Shown piece after piece: positions 49,057 to 63,903 of a DNA stretch of 63,903 nucleotides. The translations under genes and the position numbers were made by a program. Position 1 is the first letter of the stretch. Each line of letters begins with the position of its first letter. This DNA is from Bacteroidota bacterium (lineage in GTDB: Bacteria > Bacteroidota > Bacteroidia > Bacteroidales > VadinHA17), in the NCBI GenBank assembly GCA_003250475.1, contig QKGI01000052.1, positions 1 to 63,903 of the forward strand, written 5' to 3'. Below the pieces are notes generated by a model, which searched no databases, had not been told where the DNA came from, and worked only from the letters and a program-made list of their open reading frames with translations.

Positions 49057-50022
49057 CTATTTATTCCCGGCATCGCCTGTTTCCGTAAAATCAGAATCCG
49101 GGAAATAATGGAACCTCAGATATTCCACCAGCAGACGTGACAGATCGGTGATTAGTTTTTCACGTTTTGCCTGAACTGTTCTGACATCAAGATCGAGCTC
49201 AATCTGGATGCCGTCAATTGTACCACCGCCCGAAGAGCCATGGCGTGTGGTGTTATATCCACCGCTGAAGTAGGGTTCTCCCGGAGCCGGGAATGGGATC
49301 TCAGGACCGGGCACAGTTGGATATCCCATTTTGCTCAGCATACTGCCAAGACTCGACGGGCCTCTTATAAGCTGTGAAAATGACAACGTCCCTGATTGTG
49401 TCTCAACAAGGTTTCTGATGCTGCTGTATTCAACAAAAGTACCCAGGTCAAGCATGTCATCCTCAAACTGAAGCTCATCGCCGGAGAGCAGATATCCCAG
49501 CTCTGTCCTTTTTATCTGGTGCCTGTGACCGTGAAGATCAATGTAAAGGCCTTTTCCAAATTTTTCTGTCACATCGGCTGCTGCACTATCGATATAATCC
49601 TGAAAATGATGCCACGCCTCCTCAGCATATATATTACCGGCTGCAGCCTCTTCAATATTGCGGTTTGGATCAAGCCTTGTACGGTGAAGATTGTTGATTA
49701 TGACATACGGGTAATACCCTGTCAGGCTGTGAATAGTATCACGTATGCCTATACCAATTTCCAGGGTATACACATCCTGGTTCTTAGAGCAGTTAGTACA
49801 TGATCGCTCGGGAATGTTATCAGGCAACAGATAACCGCCATGGGGTATTGAGATCACCAGCGGCATATTACCTGGCAGATATGTTATGTAACTTCCGTCA
49901 CCCGCTGAAACTCCGGCTTCTGATTGCCTCTGTGCCGGAACAATTTGAGTTATGGATAATATAAAGGCCAGGAATAAGAATTTGACAAGCTTCATCATTA
50001 CATTTTTTTCATGAAATCCCAA
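49057..50022 (-). CDS. Secreted N-formylglutamate amidohydrolase-like protein
   Basis: A 321-residue exported hydrolase-like protein with a signal peptide. It contains the features of the N-formylglutamate amidohydrolase family: PLVISIPHGGYLLPDNIP, NNLHRTRLDPNRN, LYIDLHGHRHQIKRTELGYLL (zinc-binding His and catalytic region) and TIDGIQIELDLDVRTVQ with the conserved Glu. Such zinc enzymes remove N-formyl or similar groups from glutamate; here, export suggests an extracytoplasmic gamma- or N-acyl-glutamate substrate, but that is inference. It is divergent from the poly-gamma-glutamate operon. Confidence 0.7.
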   Translation of the reverse strand: MGFHEKNVMMKLVKFLFLAFILSITQIVPAQRQSEAGVSAGDGSYITYLPGNMPLVISIPHGGYLLPDNIPERSCTNCSKNQDVYTLEIGIGIRDTIHSLTGYYPYVIINNLHRTRLDPNRNIEEAAAGNIYAEEAWHHFQDYIDSAAADVTEKFGKGLYIDLHGHRHQIKRTELGYLLSGDELQFEDDMLDLGTFVEYSSIRNLVETQSGTLSFSQLIRGPSSLGSMLSKMGYPTVPGPEIPFPAPGEPYFSGGYNTTRHGSSGGGTIDGIQIELDLDVRTVQAKREKLITDLSRLLVEYLRFHYFPDSDFTETGDAGNK

Positions 50023-50322: not shown

Positions 50323-50423
50323 AACTGTAAAACAGAGATGCCGGGGCTCCTACCATACTATTAATCAATAGCTTGAAATGCTGGCATGGCTTTTGGAAAC
50401 TGCTTTCGGAATAACTTTCATTT

Positions 50424-51689
50424 ATGAGTATTGAATTAATCATTTTCATTTGCATGCTTGCGACTTTTGCGCTAAGCATATTTCTTTTCAAAATGCCTGC
50501 AGGTGTCTCCCTTATGCTGGCAGCAGTCGTGGGAGCACTCATTGGCGGTGAGGGTCTGCCGGTAAGGCATCTTGTTGAAGGTGGTTTCGGTTTTCTTGAA
50601 GCTATACTGATAATCTCAACGGCAATGATTTTCATGCGGGTGATGCAGGAGACCGGGGCTCTTGCCGGAGTAAGCAGAGGTATACTCAGGCTTTTTTACC
50701 GCCAGCCCACACTCCTTATCATTGTCATTACCGTTTTTGTTATGTTCCCCGGTATGCTTACCGGTTTGTCGTCAACATGCATACTGACAACCGGGGCTCT
50801 TGTTGCACCGATACTGATAAACATAGGTATGCAGAGACTTGCTGTCGGGGCGCTTATTGCCATGGCAGCCGTTTTCGGCGAGGTGGCCCCTCCCATCAGC
50901 ATACCGGTTATGATCATCGGCGGCGGGGTTGACATGCCATATATAGGTTTTGGAATACCCCTCCTCCTCGTCTCATTACCTCCTGCACTTATTACTGCAC
51001 TATACTTCCGGTACAGGTACCTTCCTGACTATAATGTGGACAGGGTGAAGGAATACCTTGATTCTACCGATGGCGAAAAATACGGGGTAATCCTGTATCT
51101 GCCGATAGTCTTCGTCATCCTTTATATGATCGGCGAGATACGGTTTCATGAATATGTACCTCACCTGGGTGTCCCGTTGATCTTTATTATAGGTACCATT
51201 CTGGGACTATTGACACGGAAGGGGGTAAAAATAATTGACGTCTCCAGAAAGGCGCTGAGAAGTGCAATGCCTGTGATGGCCATCCTTGTTGGTGTAGGGA
51301 TGTTCCTTCAGATTCTGGCTCTGACCGGTGTACGTGGATACCTTGCTGTCACAGCACTTGGCCTTCCTGAGGGTATCAGATACCTTGCCGCAGGGCTGAT
51401 GCCTTTCATGGGATCTGCCTACGGCTCAGCGTCAATCATAGGCGTTCCGCTTGTTTATGTGTTCATTGGAAAAAGTACACTGGTGGTAACTGCTGTTCTT
51501 GTACTGATGGCCGCCCTCGGGGACCTTATGCCGCCCCCTGCCCTGCTCTGTGCATATTCATCACAAATAATCGAAGAGAAAAACCACTTCAGAATACTTA
51601 AGACCTGTCTTATCCCCATAGCCATCTCAATGACAATAGGGATATTGATACTTGTTTTCGCACAGGAAATCTCGAACCTAATACTATAA
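50424..51689 (+). CDS. Orphan TRAP-type large permease (DctM-like)
   Basis: A 421-residue integral membrane protein with about 11-12 transmembrane segments, matching the DctM/ion-transporter superfamily (LLIIVITVFVMFPGMLTG, GEVAPPISIPVMIIGGGVD, IVFVILYMIGEIRF). TRAP transporters normally have a DctP solute-binding protein and a DctQ small subunit; neither is present, although the 48-residue protein that follows 9 nt later could substitute. As first gene of the poly-gamma-glutamate operon it may move glutamate, a polymer, or a counter-ion. The substrate is not readable from sequence. Confidence 0.85.
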   Translation: MSIELIIFICMLATFALSIFLFKMPAGVSLMLAAVVGALIGGEGLPVRHLVEGGFGFLEAILIISTAMIFMRVMQETGALAGVSRGILRLFYRQPTLLIIVITVFVMFPGMLTGLSSTCILTTGALVAPILINIGMQRLAVGALIAMAAVFGEVAPPISIPVMIIGGGVDMPYIGFGIPLLLVSLPPALITALYFRYRYLPDYNVDRVKEYLDSTDGEKYGVILYLPIVFVILYMIGEIRFHEYVPHLGVPLIFIIGTILGLLTRKGVKIIDVSRKALRSAMPVMAILVGVGMFLQILALTGVRGYLAVTALGLPEGIRYLAAGLMPFMGSAYGSASIIGVPLVYVFIGKSTLVVTAVLVLMAALGDLMPPPALLCAYSSQIIEEKNHFRILKTCLIPIAISMTIGILILVFAQEISNLIL

Positions 51690-51698
51690 CCTGCGACT

Positions 51699-51845
51699 AT
51701 GTTATACTACATATATACACTTATCCTTGCCTATGTAACCTTCGTGGTAGTCATTGAATTTCTTAAGGAAAAGAAATGGAGGAATCAGGTGGCAATGGCG
51801 ATGGTGTTGCTCATTTTCATTTTACGTATTCTGCAAATCAAGTAA
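51699..51845 (+). CDS. 48-residue two-helix membrane protein (possible PgsE/CapE or DctQ stand-in)
   Basis: ATG to TAA encodes MLYYIYTLILAYVTFVVVIE, a basic turn (FLKEKKWRNQ) and VAMAMVLLIFILRILQIK. Two hydrophobic helices are clear. It is 9 nt after the DctM gene and ends 5 nt before the ATG of the M14-type hydrolase gene, so it is a natural member of the operon. The longest form of the hydrolase frame overlaps it, which argues that the hydrolase really starts after it. Small hydrophobic proteins of this size (CapE, PgsE) are required for poly-gamma-glutamate synthesis in Bacillus; homology to them cannot be judged by eye. Confidence 0.75.
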   Translation: MLYYIYTLILAYVTFVVVIEFLKEKKWRNQVAMAMVLLIFILRILQIK

Positions 51846-51850
51846 TAACG

Positions 51851-52975
51851 ATGATCAGGAACCATCTGTCCACCATAATAATCTTTCTTGTCACAGCCGC
51901 GGCGGGTGTCATAGCTGCAATCTCTTTCGGTAAAATGCATCACCCGGAAGAACTGTATCCCAGTACCTTCCTGACAAAAAAAGGAATGCTGAGTGATTAT
52001 TTCGACGGTATAAAAGGTACCAACGGCGACACTGAGGTCTACCTGTTCGACAGTGGCGTAGAAGGGGGAACGGCTCTTCTGGGAGGTGGAACCCACGCCA
52101 ATGAGGCAGCCTCCTTCCTGGCTTCTGTGGTGATCCTTGAGAACCTCAAAGTAACACAAGGCCGTGTGATAATAATACCGAGGATGAATAACAGCGCCTT
52201 CACCTGCTCGGATCCGATGGAAGGATTCCCGGAATACTTCGGTATACCTACGGATAATGGCACGCGGACCTTCAGACTTGGCTCAAGGGTAACAAATCCT
52301 CTCGATCAATGGCCCGATCCGCTGGTATTTGCCCAGTATCCATCTAACCAGCAGCTGTCAGGATTCGAAACGAGAAACCTGAACCGTGCATACCCTGGCA
52401 GGCCCGACGGAAATCTGACTGAGAAGGTGGCATACGCAATCATACAGCTTATCGATAAGGAGAATGTAAACATAGCCTTCGATCTGCATGAGTCTTCCCC
52501 TGAAGTCCCGATAGTAAATGTAATAGTCTACCATGAAAAATATGAGGATATAGCCATGGGGGCAGTACTGGGACTTGAGATGGCAGGTCTCCAGTTCTCA
52601 CCCGAGACCTCCCCGAAGAATTTTCATGGCCTTAGCCACAGGGAATGGGGAGACTTTACAAACGCAGTGCCATTCCTTATGGAGACCAGCAATCCTTCCA
52701 TGGGAAGGCTCAGGGGCAAAACCGATGTTGACCTCGTTCTGAGAGGTTATTGTGACAACTACAAAAAAGCCAAAGAGACCGGAGCACTTAGAATTGCCTA
52801 CAGGGAGGATACCGGCGAACCTATTGAACACCGGGTCGGCAGGCATATCATGGGATTCAAGGAACTTATCAATTCATATAATTATTACTATCCCGAGAAC
52901 CAAATCGTAATTGAAAACCTGCCCGACTATGATTTGATGATGGAAAACGGTGTGGGTAAATACTTAAACAACTAA
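51851..52975 (+). CDS. Exported M14-type zinc hydrolase (succinylglutamate desuccinylase/aspartoacylase-like)
   Basis: A 374-residue protein with an N-terminal hydrophobic signal or anchor (MIRNHLSTIIIFLVTAAAGV). The zinc site of the AspA/AstE and carboxypeptidase superfamily is visible as His82 and Glu85 (GGTHANEA), then His213 (FDLHESSPE). NLNRAYPG matches the substrate-binding NR motif. I start at the ATG after the small protein's stop, since the longer form overlaps it and spoils the signal. Family members cleave acyl-amino acids or C-terminal residues; in this locus a gamma-glutamyl or polyglutamate substrate is plausible. Confidence 0.8.
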   Translation: MIRNHLSTIIIFLVTAAAGVIAAISFGKMHHPEELYPSTFLTKKGMLSDYFDGIKGTNGDTEVYLFDSGVEGGTALLGGGTHANEAASFLASVVILENLKVTQGRVIIIPRMNNSAFTCSDPMEGFPEYFGIPTDNGTRTFRLGSRVTNPLDQWPDPLVFAQYPSNQQLSGFETRNLNRAYPGRPDGNLTEKVAYAIIQLIDKENVNIAFDLHESSPEVPIVNVIVYHEKYEDIAMGAVLGLEMAGLQFSPETSPKNFHGLSHREWGDFTNAVPFLMETSNPSMGRLRGKTDVDLVLRGYCDNYKKAKETGALRIAYREDTGEPIEHRVGRHIMGFKELINSYNYYYPENQIVIENLPDYDLMMENGVGKYLNN

Positions 52976-52986
52976 AAACCAAAAAT

Positions 52987-53529
52987 ATGAAAGCAAGGAT
53001 CTCAACAATCGTAACCATACTGATCTTTTTCTTTACCGTATCAGTACAAGCTCAGACATTTGAACAACCTGTATTAATCTCATCTGCCGGCCAGAGCGCC
53101 GATGTAAAGCTCGTAAAGATGCTGGCCCAGAGACAGGGGCTCGATGCTACAACCATCCTGATGGCCAAACCTGCAGACCTCACAGGTTTCAAGACATTGA
53201 TCATCGTTCCGGGATTCAGTTCAAAGGGACTGGGAGCTGCCGGTATAAGCCAGCAGGAGGAGATGGAACGGGTTCAGACACTCATAAAATCAGCAAATGA
53301 TCTTAAGATCCCGATAGTGATGCTTCACATTGGCGGTAATGCCCGCAGAAAAGGACAGTCGGATGCATTTAACCAGATTGTGGCTGAAAACTCAAAAGCA
53401 ATGGTAGTGGTCAGGCAGGGCGACGAGGATGGGTTCTTCACAGGTATTTCCAAAGCAAAGAACATCCCTCTTACGCTTGTTGATAAAATAGCGGAGACAG
53501 CAACTCCGCTTGGTAACCTGTTCAAATAA
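52987..53529 (+). CDS. Small exported protein, DUF6305-like
   Basis: A 180-residue protein with a signal peptide ending near VSVQA. The mature part (PVLISSAGQSADVKLVKMLA, LIIVPGFSSKGLGAAGI, IPIVMLHIGGNARRKGQ) is an alpha/beta fold and resembles a family I know as DUF6305, with no assigned role. It lies between the M14-type hydrolase and the gamma-glutamyltransferase in the same direction with short gaps, so it is likely a periplasmic component of the same system. Confidence 0.72.
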   Translation: MKARISTIVTILIFFFTVSVQAQTFEQPVLISSAGQSADVKLVKMLAQRQGLDATTILMAKPADLTGFKTLIIVPGFSSKGLGAAGISQQEEMERVQTLIKSANDLKIPIVMLHIGGNARRKGQSDAFNQIVAENSKAMVVVRQGDEDGFFTGISKAKNIPLTLVDKIAETATPLGNLFK

Positions 53530-53573
53530 TTGATTGATATTCAGAAATAGTCAGACCCGAAATAGCAGATGCC

Positions 53574-55274
53574 ATGAGAAAACTAACTCTATACCTGATT
53601 CTATTTCTCGTATTAATAGTTAATACGGGTGTCCGGGGACAGTCGATGTCCCCGACAACAGGTCGGAACGGTATGGTTGCTACGGCCCATCCGTTGGCCT
53701 CAGCTGCTGCCGTTGAAATGTTAAAAAGCGGTGGTAATGCTGTTGACGCTGCCGTGGCAGCCGCCTTTACCATAGGTGTGGTTGAACCTGACGGATCAGG
53801 TCTTGGTGGTGGCGGGGGAATGGTAATATATCTGAAGGACCAGCAGAAATCCATCTTCATCAATTATTACGGAAGGAGCTCTGAAAATGCCTCGCAGGTT
53901 GATTTCAAGTCAGGCAGGGACAGTTATACGGCAAAGGCTATAGAGGTGCCCGGTACCGTTGCCGGTCTCCTCCTTGCTCATGAGAAGTTCGGTAGCCTGC
54001 CGCTGAAAAAGATCATGGAGCCGGCAATAAAGCATGCCGAGGATGGCTTCGCCATCGACCAGACACTGGCAAAACTTATTCTTGATAATATCGACAACAT
54101 AATGAGTGACTCTGTCACAGCATCTGTTTTCCTTGATGACGGGTTCCCAAGGATGGAGGGTGAGACACTCGTTCAGAAAGAGCTGGCCAGGGTACTGCGC
54201 GGCATAGCTGAAAAGGGCAGGAAAGGATTCTACGAAGGAAAGCAGGCCGAGGCTTTTGTTGAGGGTATCCAAGCACGCGGAGGAGTCCTCACCCTGAAAG
54301 ACTTTTCCTCCTACCAGGCAGAGATCACCTCGCCGATGAAAGGGACCTACAGGGGTTATGACGTGCTGACATCCAATGTGCCCCAGTCAGGCATAAGCCT
54401 TGTTGAAGGACTGAACATGCTCGAGAACTTTGACCTTAAAGCCAGCGGTCATTTCAGCGAGTCGGCCAGGACATTGCATATCATGGCTGAGGTGGATAAG
54501 CTTATCTATGCCGACAGATATCAATACCTTGGTGATCCTGACTTTGTGACTGTACCTGTAAAAGGACTTTCTTCCAAGGAGTACGCCCTGCAAAGGTTTA
54601 ACAGCATCAACCAGTCAAAGCTCGATCCCCCAAGATACAGGGATGCCGAATATGGTGATCCCGGGGTGTACGAAAATAACCTGACCAGGGAGACGGTACG
54701 CGAACCGGAACCGGCAGAAGGCCACACCACCCACCTGTCTGTGATAGATAAAGACGGCAATGCCGTGGCACTGACACAGACACTGGGACTGTTTTTCGGT
54801 TCCGGCCAGACAGTGTCAGGCGTGCTGTTCAATAACGCTATGACAAACTTCTCATATAATGTTGAGAACGTCAATTATATACAGAACAGTAAACGATGCA
54901 GGACATCTATCACACCAACAATAATCCTTAAAAATGGAGATCCGTTCCTGATACTTGGCAGCCCCGGCGCAAGCCGCATAATAACAACCCTTATCGAACT
55001 GGTGGTTAATGTAATTGACTTTGGGATGAATGTAAATGAAGCCAACCTGGCCCCGAGGTTTTACTGCCAGAAATTTGAAGATTACCTTCATGTAGAATCC
55101 GGGATCAAGCCTGAAGTATGCGAAGAGCTTGAGAAGATGGGACATGCAATAAAGATCTACAAAGGGATAGACCTCTTTTTCGGGGGAGCCCAGATTATAA
55201 TGGTTGACCCCGTCACAGGTGAGTACTCGGGATCTGCGGATAAACGAAGAGGAGGTATTGCCATGGGTTACTGA
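53574..55274 (+). CDS. ggt: Exported gamma-glutamyltransferase
   Basis: A 566-residue N-terminal-nucleophile enzyme with a signal peptide. It matures by self-cleavage before Thr385 in GHTTHLSVIDKDGNAVAL, giving a large and a small subunit. Other family marks are NAVDAAVAAAFTIGVVEPDGSG, GLGGGGGMVIY, ILVP-type and SPTIILKNGDPFLILGSPG-type regions. These enzymes hydrolyse or transfer gamma-glutamyl groups from glutathione or gamma-glutamyl polymers; CapD of Bacillus anthracis, a relative, attaches poly-gamma-glutamate to peptidoglycan. Position directly before pgsB makes a polymer role likely here. The stop is 25 nt before the pgsB start. Confidence 0.93.
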   Translation: MRKLTLYLILFLVLIVNTGVRGQSMSPTTGRNGMVATAHPLASAAAVEMLKSGGNAVDAAVAAAFTIGVVEPDGSGLGGGGGMVIYLKDQQKSIFINYYGRSSENASQVDFKSGRDSYTAKAIEVPGTVAGLLLAHEKFGSLPLKKIMEPAIKHAEDGFAIDQTLAKLILDNIDNIMSDSVTASVFLDDGFPRMEGETLVQKELARVLRGIAEKGRKGFYEGKQAEAFVEGIQARGGVLTLKDFSSYQAEITSPMKGTYRGYDVLTSNVPQSGISLVEGLNMLENFDLKASGHFSESARTLHIMAEVDKLIYADRYQYLGDPDFVTVPVKGLSSKEYALQRFNSINQSKLDPPRYRDAEYGDPGVYENNLTRETVREPEPAEGHTTHLSVIDKDGNAVALTQTLGLFFGSGQTVSGVLFNNAMTNFSYNVENVNYIQNSKRCRTSITPTIILKNGDPFLILGSPGASRIITTLIELVVNVIDFGMNVNEANLAPRFYCQKFEDYLHVESGIKPEVCEELEKMGHAIKIYKGIDLFFGGAQIIMVDPVTGEYSGSADKRRGGIAMGY

Positions 55275-55299
55275 TCACCAGGGAAGAAATGCCCTGTTA

Positions 55300-56463
55300 A
55301 TGAAATCATTTCAAACGCTTAAAATGCTGATAACAACCATTACACTGATTTTAATATTTAGTCTTTTAATCGTTGAAAAGCGGATGATACAAAAAAGCAT
55401 CCGCTTTATGTCGTTGAGAATCCAGGTCAACGGAACAAGGGGAAAATCGTCAGTGACCGAATATGTTGCTGCCGGTATCCTGGCTTCGGGGCATGAGGTG
55501 ATGGCAAAGGTGACAGGTATAACACCAACAATAATCCATAACGGTTTCAAAAAGCCAATTGACAGGCCGGGCTCAGCACGGGTGCAGGAGCAGGTGAACG
55601 TCATAAATTCAGCCTTCAGGAAAAAAGTGAAAATAATGGTCCTGGAGTGTATGTCAATCGCACCCGAACTCCAAAGACTAGAAGGATTCATATTTAAACC
55701 CCATATCTATGTAATCACCAACATCAGGGATGATCACCGTGAGGCGATGGGGAAAGATGTTGAAGCACAGGCAGAAGCCATCTGCAATGCCATACCGGCT
55801 AACTGCAAAGTCATTACCAATGAGGTACATTATCTGAACAAAATAATAGAAAAGGCCTCTGCAAACAACAGTACTGTCATAACGGCCGGGGTGCTCGAAG
55901 AACGCCTGAGAAGAAATCTTCCCGACACCGTCTTTGACGAGAACCTGGCTCTGGCCCTCACTGTTTGTCACGAAGCAGGGATGAATACGGATCTGTCAGA
56001 GGAAGGAATCATGAAGTGGATATCACAGGGTGATTCCCCTCTCTCAACAGTGCAGGCCGGCAGGAAGAATATCAGGTTCCTCAATGCCTTTGCTGCAAAC
56101 GACATAGATTCCACAAACACCTTTATTGAACACTGGAAGAACGTCTCAGGCCATGCCGGCAAAGTGTCGCTGATCCTTAATACACGAGCAGACAGGCCTT
56201 TCAGAACCGGTTTGTTTGCAGACTGGATATCAGAAAACTCTCAAATGTTCGAAAAGATAATACTGGCCGGCAACCACCAGGGAAGAGCAAGATACACCCT
56301 GTCAAGGTCCGGCATTGCAAGGCAGAATATCAGGAGCTGCAGGAGAAAAGACAGGGGTAGCATGAAAAGCCTGCTTTCAGATACTGTCAATGACGGTGCA
56401 TTTGTTGCAGGTGTGGGTAACATTGGCGGGGAAGGTTTTCACATTCTTAATGAATTAAGATGA
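55300..56463 (+). CDS. pgsB: Poly-gamma-glutamate synthase ATPase subunit PgsB/CapB
   Basis: A 387-residue Mur-ligase-type amide ligase that joins glutamates through the gamma-carboxyl using ATP. After an N-terminal transmembrane segment, the ATP site is NGTRGKSS (Asn44-Ser51). Other Mur-ligase and PgsB features include ITPTIIHNGF, VLECMSIAPELQ and VITNIRDDHREAMG. The length agrees with Bacillus PgsB (~393). I start at MKSFQTLKML, after the GGT stop; the longer frame overlaps GGT. The ATGA overlap with pgsC indicates translational coupling. Confidence 0.93.
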   Translation: MKSFQTLKMLITTITLILIFSLLIVEKRMIQKSIRFMSLRIQVNGTRGKSSVTEYVAAGILASGHEVMAKVTGITPTIIHNGFKKPIDRPGSARVQEQVNVINSAFRKKVKIMVLECMSIAPELQRLEGFIFKPHIYVITNIRDDHREAMGKDVEAQAEAICNAIPANCKVITNEVHYLNKIIEKASANNSTVITAGVLEERLRRNLPDTVFDENLALALTVCHEAGMNTDLSEEGIMKWISQGDSPLSTVQAGRKNIRFLNAFAANDIDSTNTFIEHWKNVSGHAGKVSLILNTRADRPFRTGLFADWISENSQMFEKIILAGNHQGRARYTLSRSGIARQNIRSCRRKDRGSMKSLLSDTVNDGAFVAGVGNIGGEGFHILNELR

Positions 56464-56888
56464 TACTTCAGCTATTCGTCATAGGACTGGTTGTCGGATT
56501 TATCTTCTATGAGATTACAGGGATATCGCCTGGCGGGGTGATAGCTCCCGCATATTTCGCTCTGTTTATTTATGAGCCTGACAGAATAATCATGACTCTC
56601 ATAATTGCCCTGATTGTCTACGGTATAATCAGGTTGTCGTCACAGTATCTGATCATATATGGCAGAAGGAGGTTCCTGCTTGCCGTACTGCTCAGCTTCT
56701 TCCTGAAACTGCTGATTGACTATCTGATCCAGCCGGCAGACTTCATGAAGCTTGACCTGCAGTCCATCGGTTATATCATTCCCGGGCTGATAGCCAACGA
56801 GATGGGCAGGCAGAAGGTAACCCCCACGCTCCTCAGTCTGGGTATCGTGACACTCATCATCTTCCAGATATCATTGTTTCTGCCATGA
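56460..56888 (+). CDS. pgsC: Poly-gamma-glutamate synthase membrane subunit PgsC/CapC
   Basis: A 142-residue multi-pass membrane protein with four or five helices. It begins MILQLFVIGLVVGFIFYEIT and has GISPGGVIAPAYFAL, the signature of CapC proteins that form the synthesis/export complex with PgsB. Bacillus PgsC is ~149 residues. It overlaps both neighbours by 4 nt, the usual way these genes are arranged. Confidence 0.93.
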   Translation: MILQLFVIGLVVGFIFYEITGISPGGVIAPAYFALFIYEPDRIIMTLIIALIVYGIIRLSSQYLIIYGRRRFLLAVLLSFFLKLLIDYLIQPADFMKLDLQSIGYIIPGLIANEMGRQKVTPTLLSLGIVTLIIFQISLFLP

Positions 56889-57931
56889 AGCGCCCGTCTA
56901 CAAATATCAGACTCCTTGTTGCCTTCCTGGTTCTTATGGCAGGAACAGCATTTTCAGTCACCTTTGTACGGAAACAGCAACCCCTGCCTTACAGTGATGC
57001 CATGGAAGCATCTGTCGGACTGACGAAAAGAATGTTCGGGGTTATTGAGCTATTGAAGAAGGAGCGGAATATCATATCCGATGCTCACTCTAACGTGCCA
57101 TATAATTTCATGATAGGTGATGAGTGGAGCGAGATTACTACGACACTCGGTTCCCTGGAGGCAAAAGAGACCTCGACAAACCCGGATTTCTCAGCACTCA
57201 TCGTCAGGCTACTGCATGAAGCCGGCATATCCCACGGAGACAAGGTGGGGGTGATCCTCTCAGGCTCCTTCCCTTCACTGGCCATATCCGTACTCGCTGC
57301 CCTCCAGACAATGGATATTGAAGCTGTTGTTATGAGCTCACTGGGTGCATCTACCTACGGAGCCAACCAGCCGGGTGCTACCTGGATCGATATGGAAACC
57401 GCGCTGAAGGGTAACGGACTGAAAGTTCAATCGGTTCTTGTTTCAGCCGGGGCAGGAAATGACTCCGGTGAAGGACTCTCCCCGGAAGGCCTGTCAATAA
57501 TCAGCAATGCAGCCTACAGGAACGGGGTCGATCTCTATATTCCGGCCACCCTGCACGAGTCTATTATCAAACGCTCGGAAATCTTCAGGGAGGCAGACAT
57601 CAAGCTCCTGATAAATATCGGGGGAAATGAGACAGCTCTCGGAAATTGCACCCATTCCACCACAATACCGAACGGGCTCCAGCATGGGATGACCTGGTGC
57701 AACGACTGGGACAGGGGCCTGATCTCAATATTGAATGAGTCCGGCATCCCGTTTATCAACATGCTTGATATCAAAGATCTGGCCAGCAGATATGGAATGG
57801 CTGTCTCCCCTGGAAAAGAATACTCAGCATCAACAAACCTGTATAATACCACTATCACAAATAAAATACTCCTCGCAATCGTCCTGGCAGCCTCCCTTAT
57901 ACCATTGTTTTTTTTGATAAGGAGATCATGA
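56885..57931 (+). CDS. pgsW: Poly-gamma-glutamate system protein PgsW-like
   Basis: A 348-residue protein with a transmembrane segment at each end (NIRLLVAFLVLMAGTAFS near the N-terminus; NKILLAIVLAASLIPLFFLI near the C-terminus) and a periplasmic alpha/beta domain between (VGVILSGSFPSLAISVLAAL, LLINIGGNETALGNCTHS). It corresponds to the family called poly-gamma-glutamate system protein, found beside pgsB and pgsC in bacteria that lack a Bacillus-style PgsA. Biochemical role not established. Confidence 0.9.
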   Translation: MKRPSTNIRLLVAFLVLMAGTAFSVTFVRKQQPLPYSDAMEASVGLTKRMFGVIELLKKERNIISDAHSNVPYNFMIGDEWSEITTTLGSLEAKETSTNPDFSALIVRLLHEAGISHGDKVGVILSGSFPSLAISVLAALQTMDIEAVVMSSLGASTYGANQPGATWIDMETALKGNGLKVQSVLVSAGAGNDSGEGLSPEGLSIISNAAYRNGVDLYIPATLHESIIKRSEIFREADIKLLINIGGNETALGNCTHSTTIPNGLQHGMTWCNDWDRGLISILNESGIPFINMLDIKDLASRYGMAVSPGKEYSASTNLYNTTITNKILLAIVLAASLIPLFFLIRRS

Positions 57932-58045
57932 TGATAAGGCAATTGAATAAACTAATTAAAAACATTAAACATTAAACATGAAGATATAGAATGAAATAAG
58001 ATTGAATATTTTTTAACCATTATCCCTAAACTAAATCATGCTAGT

Positions 58046-61000
58046 ATGAAAAAAACACTTCTTTTATTTGCCATTTTGGCCTTCACCGGCATACAGGTGT
58101 TTGGTCAAAGAGTGGTTACGGGAAAAGTTACGGATCCTGATGGCAATCCGTTACCTTTTCTGACAGTGTCAGTCAAGGGAACGACGACAGGTACTGTAAC
58201 AAATGATCAGGGGACGTATTCGATTACCGTTCCCGAAGGACATGATGTCCTTTCGTTCTCCTTCATAGGTATGGAACCGCAGGAGGTAAAGATCACAGGT
58301 AGTGTTCTCGACCTTGTAATGCAGCCAAGTGCCTATGCCCTGGGAGATGTTGTTGTCACTGCTCTCGGCATAACAAGGGAGAAAAAGGCTCTTGGTTATA
58401 CCGTTCAGGAGGTGACAGGAACGGAGCTGAACAAAAGAGGCAACAGTGATATTGTCTCTTCTCTTGCTGCAAAAGCGGCAGGCCTACAGGTGACAAGCTC
58501 CTCGAGCAACGCCGGAGCCTCCTCTTATATGACAATCAGGGGTGCTGCCTCTCTGACAGGAAACAACCAGCCGTTGTTCGTTATCGACGGTATGCCAATG
58601 AGCACTGAGCCATCCTATCGTGGAAGCACGGGCCAGTCAGGGGTCTACTCATCTTCGAGAAGTATAGACCTTAACCCTGATGATATAGCATCGGTTACGG
58701 TACTGAAAGGTGGAGCGGCTACAGCCCTCTACGGCCTCCAGGCTTCAAACGGTGTTATTGTCATTACCACGAAAAAGGGACCACAGGATCAGAAGATGAA
58801 GGTGAGCATTCACTCTTCGGTAGGGATAAAGGAACTTGGCAGGCACATAGAACTCCAGAACGAATACGGGCAGGGACTGAATGGTGGCTGGAGGAGCAAA
58901 TACAACGGGGCATGGGGACCAAAACTTGATACCTGCAGCTATTCACTCGACCCGGCACTGTGGCAAAACCCACTGCTTGACGTTGACGGTGCTATAGTCA
59001 GCAACAACAGCACCTACGTACCCTCCAATACCGGTGAACCGGTCAGGACATATGACCAGTTTGACTTTTTCCAGACAGGCATATCCTATAATAACAATGT
59101 GAGCATTGAAGCCGGGAACAAGAACTCATCCTATTTCTTCTCCATAGGCAATCTCAATGAGGAGGGAATTGTTCCGAACAATACCTTCGGAAGACTGACG
59201 ATCAGGCTGAATGCCGACACCAAACTCACACAGAAGATCACGACAGGTACAAATGTGATGTATGCACACACCACCAACAACCTGATTCGTGAAGGAGGAA
59301 CAAGTTCGGGTATCGGGATAGGATTGTACAGAACACCGGCTACCTTCAATAATGCTGCCGGTTATATGCTTCCTGACGGGACCCAGCGTACATACACAGG
59401 TGTCAACGGCACCTACAACAACCCTTACTGGACCGTCAATGAACAGTTCTTCAAAGACCTGAATGACAGGTTCGTGGGAAGTACCTTCCTTAAAGCAGAG
59501 TTGCTCGACTGGCTTACCATCTCCTATAATATAGGCGTCGACTGGTATGTAAGAAGATTCCAGGATGTCTATAACTGGAACAGTGTCGGCCACAGGGATG
59601 GTTACCTGAGGGAGAGATCTGAATTCCATTCGCTCTTCAATTCCGACCTGATAGTCAACATTAACAAGAAGATCAGCAGTGATATCGGGTTCAACCTTAA
59701 CCTGGGCCAGAACATGTTCCAGAAGGATTACAGGTACCTCACAGGTTATACCGATGATCTCTCAATACCTGAATTGTATAACCTTGATAATACAAGTAAG
59801 CAGACAGCAGGAAATGGTGCAACCAGTTACCGTACCGCGGCAGTCTATGCCGATCTGAGCATCGACTTCAGGAATATGCTTTACCTGGGTGCAACGCTTA
59901 GAAACGAATGGTCAACCACCATGCCCGAAGATAACCTCTCAGCCCTGTTCCCCTCATTCAGTGCATCATTCATACTGACTGAACTGGCTCCGCTGAATCA
60001 CAACAAGATACTATCTTTCGGAAAGATAAGGGCTTCATGGGGTAAGACAGCCAACATTGCTGACCCGTATATGACTTCATCTTACTACGGTTCAGGAAGT
60101 GCCGATGACTATTACACTGCAGGTATCTCTTTCCCATTCCTGGGTGTATCAGGATACACTGTAGGCAATACGGTCGGAAACCCGAACCTGAGGCATGAGA
60201 CACAGACAGCTTTCGAGGTGGGAACAGAGTTGAAATTCCTGCAGGACAGGCTGGGAATCGATTTCTCCTATTTTAACAACAAGAATATCGATCTTCTGCT
60301 TTCAGTGCCTATTGCTGCCTCCTCGGGATTTTCTTCATCTTACATGAATGCAGCATCGATGGAGAGCAAGGGGATAGAGCTCAGTGTATCAGCCATGCCT
60401 GTTAAAACCAAGAACTTCACCTGGGACATAAGGGCAAACTTCACAAAGATGAAGAACCCTGTTACCGCCCTGGCAAAAGATATAGATTATGTCCTGCTTA
60501 ACGGTGACACCAAGGCACAGATAAATGCTGCCGTAGGTTATGACTATGCAACAATATTCGGCTTTGACTGGTGGAGAGATGCCGACGGGAATATACTCAT
60601 CAACGACGACCCGACAGACTCTCATCCTGACGGATTCCCATGGACCAATAATACAAAGACAGTTGCCCTCGGCAAAGTCAGTCCCGACTGGACCATGAAC
60701 ATCTATAATACCTTCACTTACAAAGGTTTCTCTCTTACCGCGCTTGTTGACATCAAAAAAGGCGGATATGTTAATAACGGAACCCGCTTCAACCTCAACT
60801 ACTATGGCCAGACCGTCGAGACACTTGACAGAAACACACCGACTGTCTTTGAAGGCGTCTACGGACACCTCGATGCAAGCGGCAATGTTGTATCTGCCGG
60901 TGTGGAGAATACCACCGAGGTTATCAAGGATCAGTCATGGTACAGGGGTGAAAACAGCTTCACCAGCGGTGGAGCGGCTACGCAGGCTGTTGAAGATGCA

Positions 61001-61240
61001 AGCTGGGTGAAACTCAGGGAAATAACTCTCTCTTATGTCTTTGGCAATGACATCCTGTCGAAGATAAAACTGAAGGGACTGGAGCTCTATGCAACCGGTA
61101 ATAACCTGATTGTTTCCACTCCTTATAAAGGCGGAGACCCCGAGGTAAGTGTTTATGGCGCCACAAACGGACAGGGATTTGACTATTTTGCCAGCCCTGG
61201 TGTGAAATCATATATTTTTGGCGTAAAACTATCATTCTAA
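58046..61240 (+). CDS. SusC/RagA-family TonB-dependent transporter
   Basis: A 1064-residue outer membrane importer. It has a signal peptide, an N-terminal carboxypeptidase-regulatory-like beta domain (~22-100: VVTGKVTDPDGNPLPFLTVSV), a plug domain with VVVTALGITREKKALGYTVQ and TIRGAASLTGNNQPLFVIDGM, and a long beta barrel ending in aromatic GVKLSF. SusC proteins pair with a SusD lipoprotein to take up glycans or peptides with TonB energy. The partner is directly downstream. The best-known peptide user is RagAB, and the setting here suggests gamma-glutamyl or polyglutamate material. Confidence 0.95.
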   Translation: MKKTLLLFAILAFTGIQVFGQRVVTGKVTDPDGNPLPFLTVSVKGTTTGTVTNDQGTYSITVPEGHDVLSFSFIGMEPQEVKITGSVLDLVMQPSAYALGDVVVTALGITREKKALGYTVQEVTGTELNKRGNSDIVSSLAAKAAGLQVTSSSSNAGASSYMTIRGAASLTGNNQPLFVIDGMPMSTEPSYRGSTGQSGVYSSSRSIDLNPDDIASVTVLKGGAATALYGLQASNGVIVITTKKGPQDQKMKVSIHSSVGIKELGRHIELQNEYGQGLNGGWRSKYNGAWGPKLDTCSYSLDPALWQNPLLDVDGAIVSNNSTYVPSNTGEPVRTYDQFDFFQTGISYNNNVSIEAGNKNSSYFFSIGNLNEEGIVPNNTFGRLTIRLNADTKLTQKITTGTNVMYAHTTNNLIREGGTSSGIGIGLYRTPATFNNAAGYMLPDGTQRTYTGVNGTYNNPYWTVNEQFFKDLNDRFVGSTFLKAELLDWLTISYNIGVDWYVRRFQDVYNWNSVGHRDGYLRERSEFHSLFNSDLIVNINKKISSDIGFNLNLGQNMFQKDYRYLTGYTDDLSIPELYNLDNTSKQTAGNGATSYRTAAVYADLSIDFRNMLYLGATLRNEWSTTMPEDNLSALFPSFSASFILTELAPLNHNKILSFGKIRASWGKTANIADPYMTSSYYGSGSADDYYTAGISFPFLGVSGYTVGNTVGNPNLRHETQTAFEVGTELKFLQDRLGIDFSYFNNKNIDLLLSVPIAASSGFSSSYMNAASMESKGIELSVSAMPVKTKNFTWDIRANFTKMKNPVTALAKDIDYVLLNGDTKAQINAAVGYDYATIFGFDWWRDADGNILINDDPTDSHPDGFPWTNNTKTVALGKVSPDWTMNIYNTFTYKGFSLTALVDIKKGGYVNNGTRFNLNYYGQTVETLDRNTPTVFEGVYGHLDASGNVVSAGVENTTEVIKDQSWYRGENSFTSGGAATQAVEDASWVKLREITLSYVFGNDILSKIKLKGLELYATGNNLIVSTPYKGGDPEVSVYGATNGQGFDYFASPGVKSYIFGVKLSF

Positions 61241-61263
61241 GCTGTTCAAGGAACTAAAAAAAT

Positions 61264-62640
61264 ATGCAAATGAAGAGTTTATATAAATCGAATATTGCAA
61301 TACTGGCAATATTTCTCCTGTTTTTCACGGGATGTGAAAAATGGATAGATACGGACATGAACATCGATCCGGATGTGCCCTCTGATGTTCCGATGGATCT
61401 GCTTGTTCCTACCATGGAGCTGTCAATGTCATACCAGATAGGCGGTATCAGAGCCGTTAAAACGACCAATATCTATATGCAGTACCTCAATGGCGTTGCC
61501 AGGCAGTCATACGGTGAATCAAACTATATTCTTTCAACCACTGACGTTGATGATCTCTGGAGGAGAATGTACTATCAACCTATGATGGATGCCAGCAAAC
61601 TCATTCAGAAGGCCGCTGAGCAGAACTCTCCGCATTATGCAGGTGTTGCAAAGGTGTGCATGGCACTATGCCTGGGAACTATGACCAACCTTTTTGGTGA
61701 TATCCCCTATTCAGAAGCCTTCATGGGTGACCTTGGAGTCCTGAAGCCGGTCTTTGACTCCCAGGAGGATATCTATAATACAATCGAGGATCTTCTTGAT
61801 GAGGCCATTATCGACCTTAGCTCTACGCAGAACACCATGGCGCTGGCCGGTGACATGATCTTCTCCAACAACCGGACATCATGGACCAAAGCTGCCTACG
61901 CTCTCAAGGCAAGGTATGCACTCAACAGGGGTGATTATGCAAATGCACGGTCATACGCGGGCAATGCCTTCTCTGCGACAGATAAATTTGAGTTGACCTT
62001 CGGTACTGCCAATACCGAAGCAGGGCCGATATATCAGTATGCGACAGTTTCGTCATACAAGAATGACATAAAGATGTGTTCGACCTTTATTGACAAACTG
62101 AATGCTACCACTGACCCCAGGCGCTCTTTCTATGCAAAGACTGTCGGGGGAGCCTATGTAGGAAGCACACCAGGGTCAGAGGAGACGAATGCCTCAGGAC
62201 TGGGTACATACAATAATTCAGCTTCTGCCCCTGTCGTTCTCAGCTCATACCCGGAGATGCAGTTTATAATAGCCGAGTGCCTGCTGAGACAGGCAGTACC
62301 GGACAGTGATGCTGCCGCTGAAGCATACAAAACAGCTGTGGCAGCGTCGGTTCTTGCAGTTACTGGAGCCGATAATACCGCCTGGCTTGATGCAAATATC
62401 AATATTGAAACAGGCGCAACCATCACTCTTGAGAAAATTATCGAGCAGAAATACCTGGCAATGTATTCAACTGTTGTTCCCTACGATGATTACAGGAGGA
62501 CAGGATACCCGGCACTCACCCCTGTGGCAGGAGCCGGTGCTATCCCGGAGAGATTTCCTTATCCTCAGACAGAAATCTCCTATAACTCAAACTGTCCTGT
62601 AGTAACCAGTACAAGCCAGAAACTCTGGATATTCGAATAG
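61264..62640 (+). CDS. SusD/RagB-family outer membrane lipoprotein
   Basis: A 458-residue surface lipoprotein that acts as a lid for the SusC channel. Cys24 follows LLFFTG, a lipobox. TPR-like helical content typical of SusD and the segments MDASKLIQKAAEQNSPHYAG, LCLGTMTNLFGDIPYSEAF and LKARYALNRGDYANARSYAG place it in the smaller SusD-like group. It is 23 nt after susC. The start may be the second Met (MKSLYKSN). Confidence 0.92.
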   Translation: MQMKSLYKSNIAILAIFLLFFTGCEKWIDTDMNIDPDVPSDVPMDLLVPTMELSMSYQIGGIRAVKTTNIYMQYLNGVARQSYGESNYILSTTDVDDLWRRMYYQPMMDASKLIQKAAEQNSPHYAGVAKVCMALCLGTMTNLFGDIPYSEAFMGDLGVLKPVFDSQEDIYNTIEDLLDEAIIDLSSTQNTMALAGDMIFSNNRTSWTKAAYALKARYALNRGDYANARSYAGNAFSATDKFELTFGTANTEAGPIYQYATVSSYKNDIKMCSTFIDKLNATTDPRRSFYAKTVGGAYVGSTPGSEETNASGLGTYNNSASAPVVLSSYPEMQFIIAECLLRQAVPDSDAAAEAYKTAVAASVLAVTGADNTAWLDANINIETGATITLEKIIEQKYLAMYSTVVPYDDYRRTGYPALTPVAGAGAIPERFPYPQTEISYNSNCPVVTSTSQKLWIFE

Positions 62641-62700
62641 ATGGGCTTAATACCTGCCCTGACTGAATATATTTTAGACTTTTAGACCAGATTATCTATC

Positions 62701-62749
62701 CCGGGAAGAAAATCATAACATAGTAATGAATTTTCTTCCCGGTTTTTTT
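62701..62749 (+). terminator. Intrinsic terminator after SusD
   Basis: A 13-bp perfect stem (CCGGGAAGAAAAT / ATTTTCTTCCCGG) with a 16-base loop is followed by seven T. It ends the SusC/SusD unit and separates it from the racemase homologue. Confidence 0.92.
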
Positions 62750-62823
62750 ATGTCGTATAATCCTGATTTGCATCGGCACATTTAATATAATATCTGTAAA
62801 AAACTTAAGTACCACATGTCATT

Positions 62824-63807
62824 ATGAATAAGGTAATTGCCTTTCTCTTAGTGATTTCAGTCTCCTGGTGCCACAACATGAAAATGAGTGCACAGGAGCC
62901 AACTGACCCGGGCAGCCTTTCCGGAAGGAAGGAAATCACTCTTGTTATCACAGACTCAGGTCTCGGGGGCATATCAGTCATGGAGGATATTGCTGTTAAA
63001 CTGAAAGAATCCGGATGCTATAAAAAAGTAAACCTGGTATTTGTAAATGCCCTTTTTGATGAGAACACCGGCTACAACTCTTTTCAGACAAAGAAAGAAA
63101 AGACCGCGATGTTTGACAGGGTCCTGACAGCGATTGACAACAGATACCATCCTGATGCCATTCTCATTGGCTGCAATACCCTTTCCGTTATCTATGACGA
63201 AACAGCTTTTTCCGGTTTGTCAAAAACGCCGGTCATAGGAATTGTTGAAGCCGGTATCGGGCTGATCAGCAACAGGCTGAAAGCAGACCCCTTGTCCAGG
63301 GTGATAATCTTTGGAACTGAGACCACCATCGAAGAAGACAGTCACAGGGAGGGTTTATTGAAGCTTGGCATCGATGGGGAGAGGATAGTCACCAAAGCAT
63401 GCCCCCAGCTTCAGTCTTATATTGAACAGGACCCGGCATCAGAACAGACAGAAATGCTTATTTCTGTGTACATTAACGAAGCCCTGGAGGAGTTGGAGAG
63501 CAATGACGGAAGTGTTTACCTAAGCCTCAATTGCAGCCATTTCGGGTATTCGGAGAAGCTATGGATGAAAGCGGCCGGGGAGACATCGTTCAGGATAGGC
63601 GGAATACTCGATCCAAACAGCTCCATGGGCGATATTATAACAGAACAGAAGTGCCACGGCAGAAAAAACCATACCAGGTTCTCATTCCTTGTTATTTCCA
63701 GGGTAAAAATGCCCAATGCTGCAACAATAGCCGGTTACTTTGAGGAGAGCTCTCCCGAAATTGCCGATGCCCTGAGGAACTACAAACTTATTCCGGACCT
63801 TTTCTAA
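62824..63807 (+). CDS. Exported glutamate/aspartate racemase homologue
   Basis: A 327-residue protein with a probable signal peptide (MNKVIAFLLVISVSWCHNMK to SAQ), unlike the cytoplasmic MurI of cell-wall synthesis. Both catalytic cysteines of the MurI family are kept: Cys117 in IGCNTLSV and Cys237 in LNCSHFGY, and the conserved Asp44 in ITDSGLGG. Other motifs match (PVIGIVEAGIG, IFGTETTIEEDSH). Signal peptide plus intact active site suggest racemisation of free or peptide-bound glutamate outside the cytoplasm. It is co-directional with the PgsBCW-SusCD group but follows a terminator. Confidence 0.85.
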   Translation: MNKVIAFLLVISVSWCHNMKMSAQEPTDPGSLSGRKEITLVITDSGLGGISVMEDIAVKLKESGCYKKVNLVFVNALFDENTGYNSFQTKKEKTAMFDRVLTAIDNRYHPDAILIGCNTLSVIYDETAFSGLSKTPVIGIVEAGIGLISNRLKADPLSRVIIFGTETTIEEDSHREGLLKLGIDGERIVTKACPQLQSYIEQDPASEQTEMLISVYINEALEELESNDGSVYLSLNCSHFGYSEKLWMKAAGETSFRIGGILDPNSSMGDIITEQKCHGRKNHTRFSFLVISRVKMPNAATIAGYFEESSPEIADALRNYKLIPDLF

Positions 63808-63903
63808 GAAAGAAAAACCGGTCCTGACACATGTATAAACAAAGTAAGCTTTTCCCTTTTGTCGCGAATGACTAAGTTTACATCATAAAGAAAGATATTG
63901 AGA

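Follow-up and report, generated by a model that had tools for sequence, protein, structure and literature searches.

A poly-gamma-glutamate synthase locus with exported hydrolases and a permease in Bacteroidota and other phyla

Genes and features of the locus

The window (the whole stretch of DNA analysed) is an entire contig of 63903 bases, so the downstream edge of the locus is the contig end and does not imply that the system ends there. Eleven genes, all on the + strand, were found at the positions given in the original prediction, which was made from the sequence alone and which missed a divergent upstream gene (FG1) and further genes past the contig end. The features are as follows.

49057..49998, - strand: exported FGase-family (PF05013) hydrolase, FG1, divergent from the operon
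50382..50397, + strand: tentative sigma-54-like promoter element, 42 nt upstream of DctM
50424..51689, + strand: DctM-like permease, 421 aa (PF06808)
51699..51845, + strand: sm48, 48-residue protein with two hydrophobic segments
51851..52975, + strand: M14-type AstE/AspA-like zinc hydrolase (PF24827, AstE_AspA_cat)
52987..53529, + strand: exported DUF6305 protein (PF19823)
53574..55274, + strand: exported gamma-glutamyltransferase, GGT (TIGR00066)
55300..56463, + strand: PgsB, gamma-glutamyl ligase (TIGR04012)
56460..56888, + strand: PgsC membrane subunit (TIGR04011)
56885..57931, + strand: PgsW (TIGR04332)
58046..61240, + strand: SusC-type TonB-dependent transporter (SusC plug)
61264..62640, + strand: SusD-type protein (PF12771, SusD-like_2)
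62824..63807, + strand: exported racemase homologue (Asp_Glu_race)

The gaps between DctM, sm48, M14, DUF6305, GGT and PgsB are 9, 5, 11, 44 and 25 nt, PgsB/PgsC and PgsC/PgsW overlap by 4 nt each as predicted, and PgsW, SusC, SusD and the racemase homologue are separated by 114, 23 and 183 nt. The M14-type gene is placed from 51851, its mechanical ORF starting at 51776; the mechanical ORF of PgsB starts at TTG 55204. Past the contig end come genes for a sensor kinase and an NtrC-type regulator and for another FGase-type protein (FG2), whose T9SS tail (Por_Secre_tail, seen in 4 of 15 aligned FGase-type members) makes a cell-surface location probable. The order racemase-kinase-regulator-FG2 was seen in 5/5 relatives examined there, with SusC-SusD preceding it in their loci. 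A scan with a sigma-54 consensus (maximum 24) gave 21/24 for the element before DctM, a score reached by a fraction 0.0025 of shuffles, and elements are similarly placed in L034 (24/24) and L055 (21); in the group set as NtrC-linked 6 of 16 upstream regions score below 20. The operon is perhaps under sigma-54-type control.

When the synthase was checked against curated profiles, PgsB (244.7 bits against TIGR04012, cut-off 222.7), PgsC (129.3 bits against TIGR04011, cut-off 96.45) and PgsW (274.2 bits against TIGR04332, subfamily cut-off 100) all passed the NCBIfam cut-offs, and GGT (478.3 bits against TIGR00066, cut-off 357.85) likewise passed its curated cut-off. The Mur-ligase/CapB similarity of PgsB, on which the prediction was staked, is also borne out by G45, R47, G48, K49, E116, N141, D145 and H146, each conserved in 95% or more of 49 rows, which we take to be Mur-ligase-type ATP-site and catalytic positions. 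On this family membership PgsBCW would synthesize a gamma-glutamyl polymer. PgsW is modelled as an alpha/beta domain flanked by two terminal hydrophobic helices (mean pLDDT 93.7). In alignments Thr385 of GGT falls on residue 1 of the small subunits of solved structures; a simple nucleophile-region motif is absent from 7 of 69 long GGT frames.

The permease has 12 hydrophobic segments and scores 33.9 bits against PF06808 (cut-off 23.8), matching profile positions 217-380 of 413 only; when its profile was compared with solved chains, none matched at E up to 1. The adjoining sm48 has no match in Pfam or NCBIfam, and its Y6, L42, R43 and K48 are each conserved in 95% or more of 78 rows. The M14-type protein (33 bits against PF24827, cut-off 25) has a hydrophobic anchor at its N-terminus and belongs to a conserved family of its own of about 374 aa, with H82, E85 and H213 in 81/81 rows and E278 in 80/81. 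Among solved sequences it comes closest to DoeB-type deacetylases and to desuccinylase-like proteins, that is, N-acyl-amino-acid deacylase types and not gamma-PGA hydrolases; this and the partial-profile match of DctM were counted against the cycle proposed below. The DUF6305 protein (169 bits against PF19823, cut-off 25) gave a confident alpha/beta structure model.

FG1 has a hydrophobic N-terminus and scores 31.0 bits against PF05013 (gathering score 28.9), whereas against the HutG equivalog it reaches just 18.5 of 278.75 bits. The racemase homologue passes Asp_Glu_race (35.9 bits, cut-off 31) and reaches 57.6 bits against TIGR00067, under the glutamate-racemase cut-off of 146.65, so that 'homologue', the word already chosen in the prediction, is the right term. 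Its closest solved relatives are glutamate racemases, and C117 and C237, presumably the two catalytic cysteines of that enzyme, are invariant in 12 rows. Eleven linked full-length homologues have signal-like N-termini (judged by eye), and the window's own genome has a separate MurI above the cut-off. The SusC plug scores 62.2 bits (cut-off 23.9) and SusD 219.2 bits against PF12771 (cut-off 27).

Conservation of the gene set

The original prediction had joined these genes into one system, for which conserved order of at least five genes was to speak. A unit of eight (DctM, sm48, M14, DUF6305, GGT, PgsB, PgsC and PgsW) is arranged as in the window in 6 of 13 other sampled genomes of the phylum with a PgsW match. 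A scan with M14 retained 80 loci from 12 labelled phyla; 22 have the exact eight-gene order (5 of these apparently being the same contigs as 5 of the six phylum genomes) and 40, from 8 labelled phyla, have all eight genes in the stretch. These full loci are distributed as Bacteroidota 13, Bacillota 9, Ignavibacteriota 7, Calditrichota 4, Fidelibacterota 2, Zixiibacteriota, Myxococcota and Fusobacteriota 1 each, and unlabelled 2, with a different gene order in Bacillota and others. The description as a Bacteroidota locus was therefore right as to presence there and too narrow in that 7 other labelled phyla carry the full set. Carriers from the scan include Clostridium tetanomorphum DSM 4474 (a glutamate fermenter), C. 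pascui DSM 10365 and Rectinema subterraneum. Among 41 well-flanked loci DctM, sm48 and DUF6305 are present in all 41 and GGT in 40.

Co-occurrence across genomes points the same way. Strong M14 matches and DUF6305 over its cut-off pick out the identical 8 of 395 genomes (Fisher 7e-17), 7 of which have PgsW (Fisher 5e-11), and in a Fusobacteriaceae sample of 61 genomes all 16 with PgsW fall within the 17 with DUF6305 (8e-14). M14 distances are also correlated with the DctM, GGT, PgsB and PgsW distances (Mantel r 0.77-0.86). PgsW shares the stretch with other markers in 46 of the 80 M14 loci and is absent from it in 34; of 12 such genomes tested, 10 have PgsW elsewhere and 2 have an M14 locus with neither PgsW nor PgsC. 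Conversely, of 13 genomes that exceed the PgsW cut-off, a set to which the window's genome belongs, 6 have PgsBCW without DctM, M14 and DUF6305, so the modules are separable.

The racemase homologue and SusC/SusD, which the prediction listed on a par with the other genes, and the FGase-type genes recur less regularly. FG1 homologues are found in 20 of 80 M14 loci and the family in 5 of 8 cassette genomes versus 2 of 58 others, no FGase-type protein being found in the other 3 of the 8. The racemase family occurs in 7 of 8 cassette genomes versus 8 of 387 others; when 25 cassette genomes were tested it could not be found in 11, which include all six that are labelled Bacillota, Fusobacteriota or Spirochaetota, and it did not adjoin the cassette in the 13 stretches of the first sample. 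SusC lies at the equivalent position in L029-L033, L039 and L040 and SusD in L029-L031, L033, L039 and L040, the pair being confined, among the loci seen, to those labelled Bacteroidales. We conclude that the locus is genuine and a single system, with DctM, sm48, M14, DUF6305, GGT and PgsBCW as its core, and the racemase and FGase-type hydrolases recurring in part of the loci.

A proposed gamma-polyglutamate cycle and its alternatives

Gene content, order and co-occurrence, the family membership of PgsB, PgsC, PgsW and GGT and the kept catalytic-type residues lead us to favour, with moderate confidence, a dedicated gamma-polyglutamate cycle in which polymer would be made and exported and glutamate released and re-imported under two-component control. 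In the cytoplasm PgsB with PgsC would link glutamate via the gamma-carboxyl, giving a chain that we infer to be gamma-polyglutamate and that would be exported with PgsW, a folded domain between two membrane helices, as the putative replacement of Bacillus CapA/PgsA. Outside the inner membrane GGT would carry out exo-cleavage or transfer on the chain, which would also be the substrate of the membrane-anchored M14/AstE-like zinc hydrolase and of the FGase-type hydrolases (one exported, one T9SS-tailed and probably at the cell surface), and the exported racemase homologue would interconvert D-glutamate and L-glutamate. Released glutamate or a short gamma-glutamyl product may re-enter via the DctM-like permease, presumably working inwards, together with sm48, and in Bacteroidales SusCD would return fragments across the outer membrane. 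A two-component system, with an NtrC-type regulator here and perhaps a sigma-54 promoter, would switch the operon. The places given to PgsW, sm48 and the regulatory genes, and the inclusion of DUF6305, are provisional. The prediction had treated making versus recycling as a matter of inference, and so do we. A review describes GGTs as freeing glutamate from gamma-PGA as a carbon and nitrogen source (PMC4928254).

More tentatively, the cycle might be widespread, with glutamate banked outside the cell as gamma-polyglutamate and drawn in by a new kind of import module, in which the tethered zinc hydrolase would pass its product straight to DctM by way of sm48 with no binding protein; the exported racemase would then make D-glutamate usable, and the switch would be two-component, sigma-54-type and nitrogen-like.

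It is somewhat doubtful that the locus serves only to make and tailor a capsule or matrix, with no recycling. The hydrolases and GGT would then fix the length of the chains or join them to the envelope, like Bacillus CapD, and DctM would provide glutamate for synthesis or couple ions to export. CapD, in the review a GGT-family protein anchoring the polymer (PMC4928254), is among the matches of the locus GGT, ranked below ordinary GGTs, and for a Cloacimonadota enrichment DAPI staining is reported to show cells lying within polymer (PMC13082233). However, tailoring would seem to call for less than three kinds of exported hydrolase, a racemase homologue that is exported too and (in Bacteroidales) SusCD, and DctM-sm48-M14 keep closely together in 66 of 71 loci, even in genomes where PgsW sits elsewhere. 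We think it unlikely that, in place of a glutamate homopolymer, the locus makes a gamma-glutamylated conjugate or a capped oligomer, with M14 as a cap-removing N-deacylase: M14 does fall in the AstE/AspA/DoeB group, whose known substrates are N-acylated glutamate, aspartate and diaminobutyrate, but the equivalog cut-offs that PgsB and PgsC exceed are those of the polymer synthase. A scavenging role, directed at gamma-PGA or gamma-glutamyl peptides of foreign origin and with PgsBCW an unrelated neighbour or used for storage, would suit SusCD, the permease, the surface-type hydrolase with its T9SS tail and the glutamate fermentation of C. tetanomorphum, and GGT-freed glutamate can nourish cells according to the same review (PMC4928254), but it is very improbable given that PgsW co-occurs with the other markers in 7/8 and 16/17 genomes and in one stretch in 46/80 loci.

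No description of the extended cassette was found in a literature search. Gamma-PGA has been studied mainly as a Bacillus capsule or slime; here, in several phyla, its synthase travels with fixed exported hydrolases, a permease and sm48, joined in many loci by an exported racemase homologue. Bacteria with the cassette may both make the polymer and take the glutamate back, and recycling of their own gamma-PGA becomes directly testable in cultured carriers. The locus also offers functional leads for DUF6305, TIGR04332 and sm48 and raises the question of racemization outside the cytoplasm.

Comparison with known systems

The locus resembles Bacillus pgsBCA(E)/capBCADE in its PgsB and PgsC, both over curated cut-offs, and in having GGT nearby, as with capD in the review (PMC4928254). 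It differs in having PgsW, with no Pfam or NCBIfam match to CapA/PgsA among the ten cassette proteins scanned, and in adding the permease, sm48, M14, DUF6305, the exported racemase homologue, FGase-type hydrolases and two-component genes. Loci with PgsBC(W) only (L016-L019) likewise have ligase, PgsC and a third protein consecutively; DctM, sm48, M14 and DUF6305 were not found in the 20-kb stretches of L016-L021, six loci that share two other neighbour genes. The same series of ligase, PgsC and third protein is seen in the Cloacimonadota PGA operon, described as three genes, CapB, CapC and CapA (PMC13082233). In a table of a Francisella paper, capA bears the name 'hypothetical poly-gamma-glutamate system protein' (PMC5362203), and the PgsW name is thus in use there too. 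Gamma-PGA production by Fusobacterium nucleatum is cited in a review (PMC3815933), and our Fusobacteriaceae sample has DUF6305 in 17/61 genomes and PgsW in 16, with GGT-DUF6305 in 12 contexts, where the adjoining gene is DctM (11) or GGT (1). M14 shares fold family and metal-type residues with the AstE/AspA/DoeB zinc deacylases but has an N-terminal anchor, forms a separate conserved family and lies far under the DoeB cut-off (44.8 of 402.7 bits). Like TRAP transporters (DctPQM) the locus has a DctM-family permease, but it stands alone, with no match to DctP or DctQ among the ten cassette proteins scanned, and beside it lie a 48-residue protein and an anchored hydrolase.

The locus and its gene order in other genomes

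The eleven plus-strand genes of the original prediction were all recovered where it had placed them (50424..63807), and its naming of pgsB, pgsC and pgsW was borne out by a curated-model search in which the products passed the cut-offs of TIGR04012, TIGR04011 and TIGR04332, as the gamma-glutamyltransferase (GGT) passed that of TIGR00066. Pfam gathering scores were passed by the DUF6305, DctM, AstE_AspA_cat (the exported zinc hydrolase, M14), SusD and Asp_Glu_race (the racemase homologue) proteins of the window; SusC carries plug and carboxypeptidase-regulatory domains, and neither Pfam nor NCBIfam gave a match for the 48-residue membrane protein (sm48). Gaps within the first eight genes are at most 44 nt, and those between PgsW and SusC and between SusD and the racemase homologue are 114 and 183 nt. 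The predicted gene list stopped short, missing members past the end of the contig (one of 168 in an assembly of 3.47 Mb, spanned in full by the window) and an upstream gene, FG1:

49057-49998, divergent, exported FGase-family protein (FG1)

Genes for a LytTR response regulator and for a class III aminotransferase also lie upstream (46931-48829, minus strand); among the loci, strong matches to them (E <1e-40) are confined to the close relatives L029, L031, L032 and L033.

In a sample of the phylum (395 genomes, the window's own counted in) PgsW is matched in 14 genomes, 13 of them above cut-off. The conserved order sought for the predicted system, DctM-sm48-M14-DUF6305-GGT-PgsB-PgsC-PgsW, was found complete at 6 of the 13 other PgsW loci, the remainder having GGT-PgsBCW (2), PgsBCW alone (4) or a decayed locus (1). 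L028 is a decayed locus copy with GGT, PgsB and PgsW fragments and a stop inside the PgsW match. Named contigs were scanned with an M14 alignment, and the best 80 loci among the 502 relatives obtained were retained without dereplication (Bacillota 19, Bacteroidota 18, Ignavibacteriota 13, Calditrichota 5, Fidelibacterota 3, Spirochaetota 3, Fusobacteriota 2, single loci from Zixiibacteriota, Acidobacteriota, Myxococcota, Atribacterota and Gemmatimonadota, and 12 unlabelled; L046 and L024, L047 and L022, L048 and L026, L057 and L023, and L058 and L025 are likely the same contigs). Within these best 80 of 502, all eight genes are present in 40 stretches from eight labelled phyla, and the exact order of the window, on one strand, in 22 (Bacteroidota 11, Ignavibacteriota 6, Calditrichota 2, Zixiibacteriota 1, unlabelled 2). 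DctM-sm48-M14 is uninterrupted in 66 of the 71 loci having at least 1.9 kb upstream, and in two of the five with a broken triad the racemase sits between sm48 and M14. When the 39 loci with less than 6 kb on one side of M14 were omitted, the 41 well-flanked loci (at least 6 kb on each side) contained DctM (41), sm48 (41), DUF6305 (41) and GGT (40) almost throughout; PgsB, PgsC and PgsW each occur in 29 on the same strand and in 4 on the opposite strand, the racemase in 12, SusD in 5 and SusC in 8, a tally that takes in L034 and L055, whose match is an upstream and not a downstream gene. No gene fusions joining cassette families appeared in the printed output.

Bacillota loci commonly run GGT-DUF6305-DctM-sm48-M14-M14'-PgsB-PgsC-PgsW, with kinase and regulator genes next in line. 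Many Bacillota and some other loci (L070, L102, L082, L092 and others) encode a second, shorter M14-type protein, that of L070 and L102 being AspA/DoeB-like, and the short contigs L103 and L104 carry a tandem pair of DctM-sm48-M14-type sets or M14 copies. A second pgsBCW type (L016-L021) has no DctM, M14 or DUF6305; common to its loci are two other genes nearby (median lengths 384 and 311 aa), which could be an export route.

Co-occurrence of the cassette families

DUF6305 is above cut-off in 8 of the 395 genomes, and strong M14 matches fall in the identical eight (M14 is matched in 33 genomes, the 25 excluded being partial with best E >1e-8). PgsW is present in seven of these eight and in six others. 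Fisher values for marker co-occurrence are 7e-17 and 5e-11, or 4e-15 and 1e-9 leaving out the window's genome; two matches below cut-off, PgsW in G310 (73 bits, a broken gene) and DUF6305 in G074 (20 bits), were excluded before counting. Across the family of a Fusobacteriaceae carrier DUF6305 is found in 17 of 61 genomes and PgsW in 16, all inside the 17 (8e-14). At 11 of 12 fetched loci DUF6305 is flanked by GGT and DctM; the remaining one has a second GGT in that position. PgsW is absent from 34 of the best 80 M14 stretches (of 502 relatives); when 12 of the genomes concerned were tested, 10 had PgsW elsewhere and the other two were without PgsC too. In the genome of L068 PgsBCW is separate from the M14 locus and has its own racemase and M14-type neighbours (L114), and in that of L051 with its own DUF6305 and DctM neighbours (L115). 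Gene order and co-occurrence together rule out chance neighbours. Protein distances of M14 and its neighbours are correlated (r 0.69-0.86; 0 of 500 permutations as high), shared ancestry explaining part of this, and phyla are interleaved in the M14 tree (18 label changes vs a minimum of 11), which is no proof of transfer.

SusCD, racemase, FGase-type and regulatory genes

A single-sequence search found no SusC, SusD or racemase in the 13 other phylum-sample stretches, as would be expected of an accidental tail; that reading was rejected when the genes were later found in close relatives and in L039/L040. The racemase occurs without SusCD at nine other well-flanked loci and at L066 and L100. 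A looser single-linkage cluster containing SusC is present at 20 of 88 loci from five phyla; proteins resembling TonB receptors may therefore be more widespread near the cassette than SusCD.

The racemase family is found in 15 of the 395 genomes, comprising seven of the eight with the cassette and 8 of the 387 others, and in these last eight the stretches around it hold no other cassette family. Assessment of signal peptides was by eye and with a hydropathy script. All 11 linked homologues printed in full have both cysteines and, by eye, signal-like or lipobox-like N-termini. Six N-termini were printed for cassette-less racemases: L140-L142 look exported, L145 is ambiguous, and L143 and L144, with no obvious signal peptide, may represent a cytoplasmic branch of the family. 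In a whole-genome test of 25 cassette genomes (a chosen set in which all loci except L029, L031 and L033 had no racemase match in the stretch) the racemase was present in 14, within about 20 kb of M14 in nine (one on the opposite strand), 36 kb off in one and on other contigs in four, with contigs paired by their lengths; it was found in none of the six Bacillota, Fusobacteriota or Spirochaetota genomes of the set. The window's genome has a separate MurI above cut-off, and another of its contigs encodes a protein of roughly 500 aa that looks exported and is weakly similar to glutamate racemase (L161, 7331-8842).

FG1 homologues occur at 20 of the best 80 M14 loci of 502, L044 having two. Among 80 genomes searched they are present in 5 of the 8 that carry the cassette, in none of the 6 that have only PgsBCW or the 8 that have only the racemase, and in 2 of the remaining 58. 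FGase is matched by each of the 15 members aligned, four of which have a T9SS sorting tail. The window ends shortly past the racemase, and another contig of the same genome (L160) starts with the 3' end of that gene; window 63496-63903 and L160 1-408 overlap by 408 bases at 96.8% identity, so the second contig is the continuation or a near copy, and the mismatch may reflect a mixture of strains in the assembly. After the racemase end this contig has genes for a sensor kinase and an NtrC-type sigma-54 regulator, then one for a second FGase-type protein, FG2 (Por_Secre_tail 28.7 bits, cut-off 27). All five relatives fetched over this point have the order racemase-kinase-regulator-FG2, with SusD directly before it in three of the stretches, and each of the five parent loci contains SusC-SusD; SusC-SusD-racemase-kinase-regulator-FG2 is therefore very likely also the order in the window's genome, as judged from these sequences.

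In L036, L037, L038, L043, L044 and L058 the same kinase and regulator are found ahead of the cassette in divergent orientation, and 20 of the 88 loci examined have a kinase from the broader cluster. DctM is preceded, at a distance of 42 nt, by a sigma-54-like element, which recurs at about the same position in L034 (perfect by our own scoring) and L055. The scan used a sigma-54 consensus and our own weights, picked after the site in the window was known. Of the 16 upstream regions set as NtrC-linked (a group which takes in L030, L032, L034 and L055, with no kinase pair seen, and whose closest rows are not independent), 10 reached a score of at least 20, vs 3 of 56 others; as a putative promoter signal the element is suggestive only.

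A proposed gamma-PGA cycle and its relation to known systems

From the cited papers and the gene content, a make-and-reclaim cycle of poly-gamma-glutamate (gamma-PGA) is most likely. PgsBCW would synthesize the polymer, GGT, M14 and the FGase-type enzymes would cleave it outside the cell, where racemisation would also occur, and DctM-sm48 would return the products, SusCD being a probable Bacteroidales addition. The near-constant DctM-sm48-M14 triad suggests that the hydrolase hands its product to the permease. H82, E85 and H213 of M14 are conserved in 81 of 81 rows and E278 in 80, and the protein has a single N-terminal hydrophobic segment. Thr385 of GGT aligns with residue 1 of solved small subunits; the GGT conservation alignment kept only 19 rows and was set aside. 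Models of PgsW (an alpha/beta domain flanked by helices 6-28 and 327-347) and DUF6305 (alpha/beta) are confident, and Foldseek gave neither a clear structural relative; its top matches, aminotransferases for PgsW and SGNH esterases for DUF6305, have TM-scores of about 0.2-0.3 and are not believed. DUF6305 sequence matches in the PDB to a designed repeat protein (E 9e-5) and to dihydropteroate synthases (E 6e-4, 46 residues) were judged to be chance.

No literature matches were obtained for DUF6305, for poly-gamma-glutamate with PgsW, for polyglutamate with pgsB in Bacteroidetes, or for poly-gamma-glutamate and TRAP transporter with either Clostridium or gamma-glutamyltransferase; the phrase 'poly-gamma-glutamate system protein' occurs in one Francisella paper. 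The closest solved relatives of M14 are DoeB and succinylglutamate-desuccinylase-like proteins. Passages of PMC4497714 describe the phage gamma-PGA hydrolase PghP as a zinc metallopeptidase related to carboxypeptidase A, a precedent for a zinc hydrolase of this bond, and passages of PMC4928254 state that GGTs release glutamate from gamma-PGA and that CapD anchors the polymer. PgsB and PgsC are conserved synthase parts, reported as pairs in 250 species of 58 genera (passages of PMC4497714), so occurrence outside Bacillus is not new; excerpts of other sources report gamma-PGA in F. nucleatum (review PMC3815933) and a CapB-CapC-CapA operon with stained polymer in Cloacimonadota (PMC13082233). We found no paper describing the extended cassette in the literature searched, subscription papers and supplements aside, and to that extent it is a new setting for the known PgsB and PgsC.
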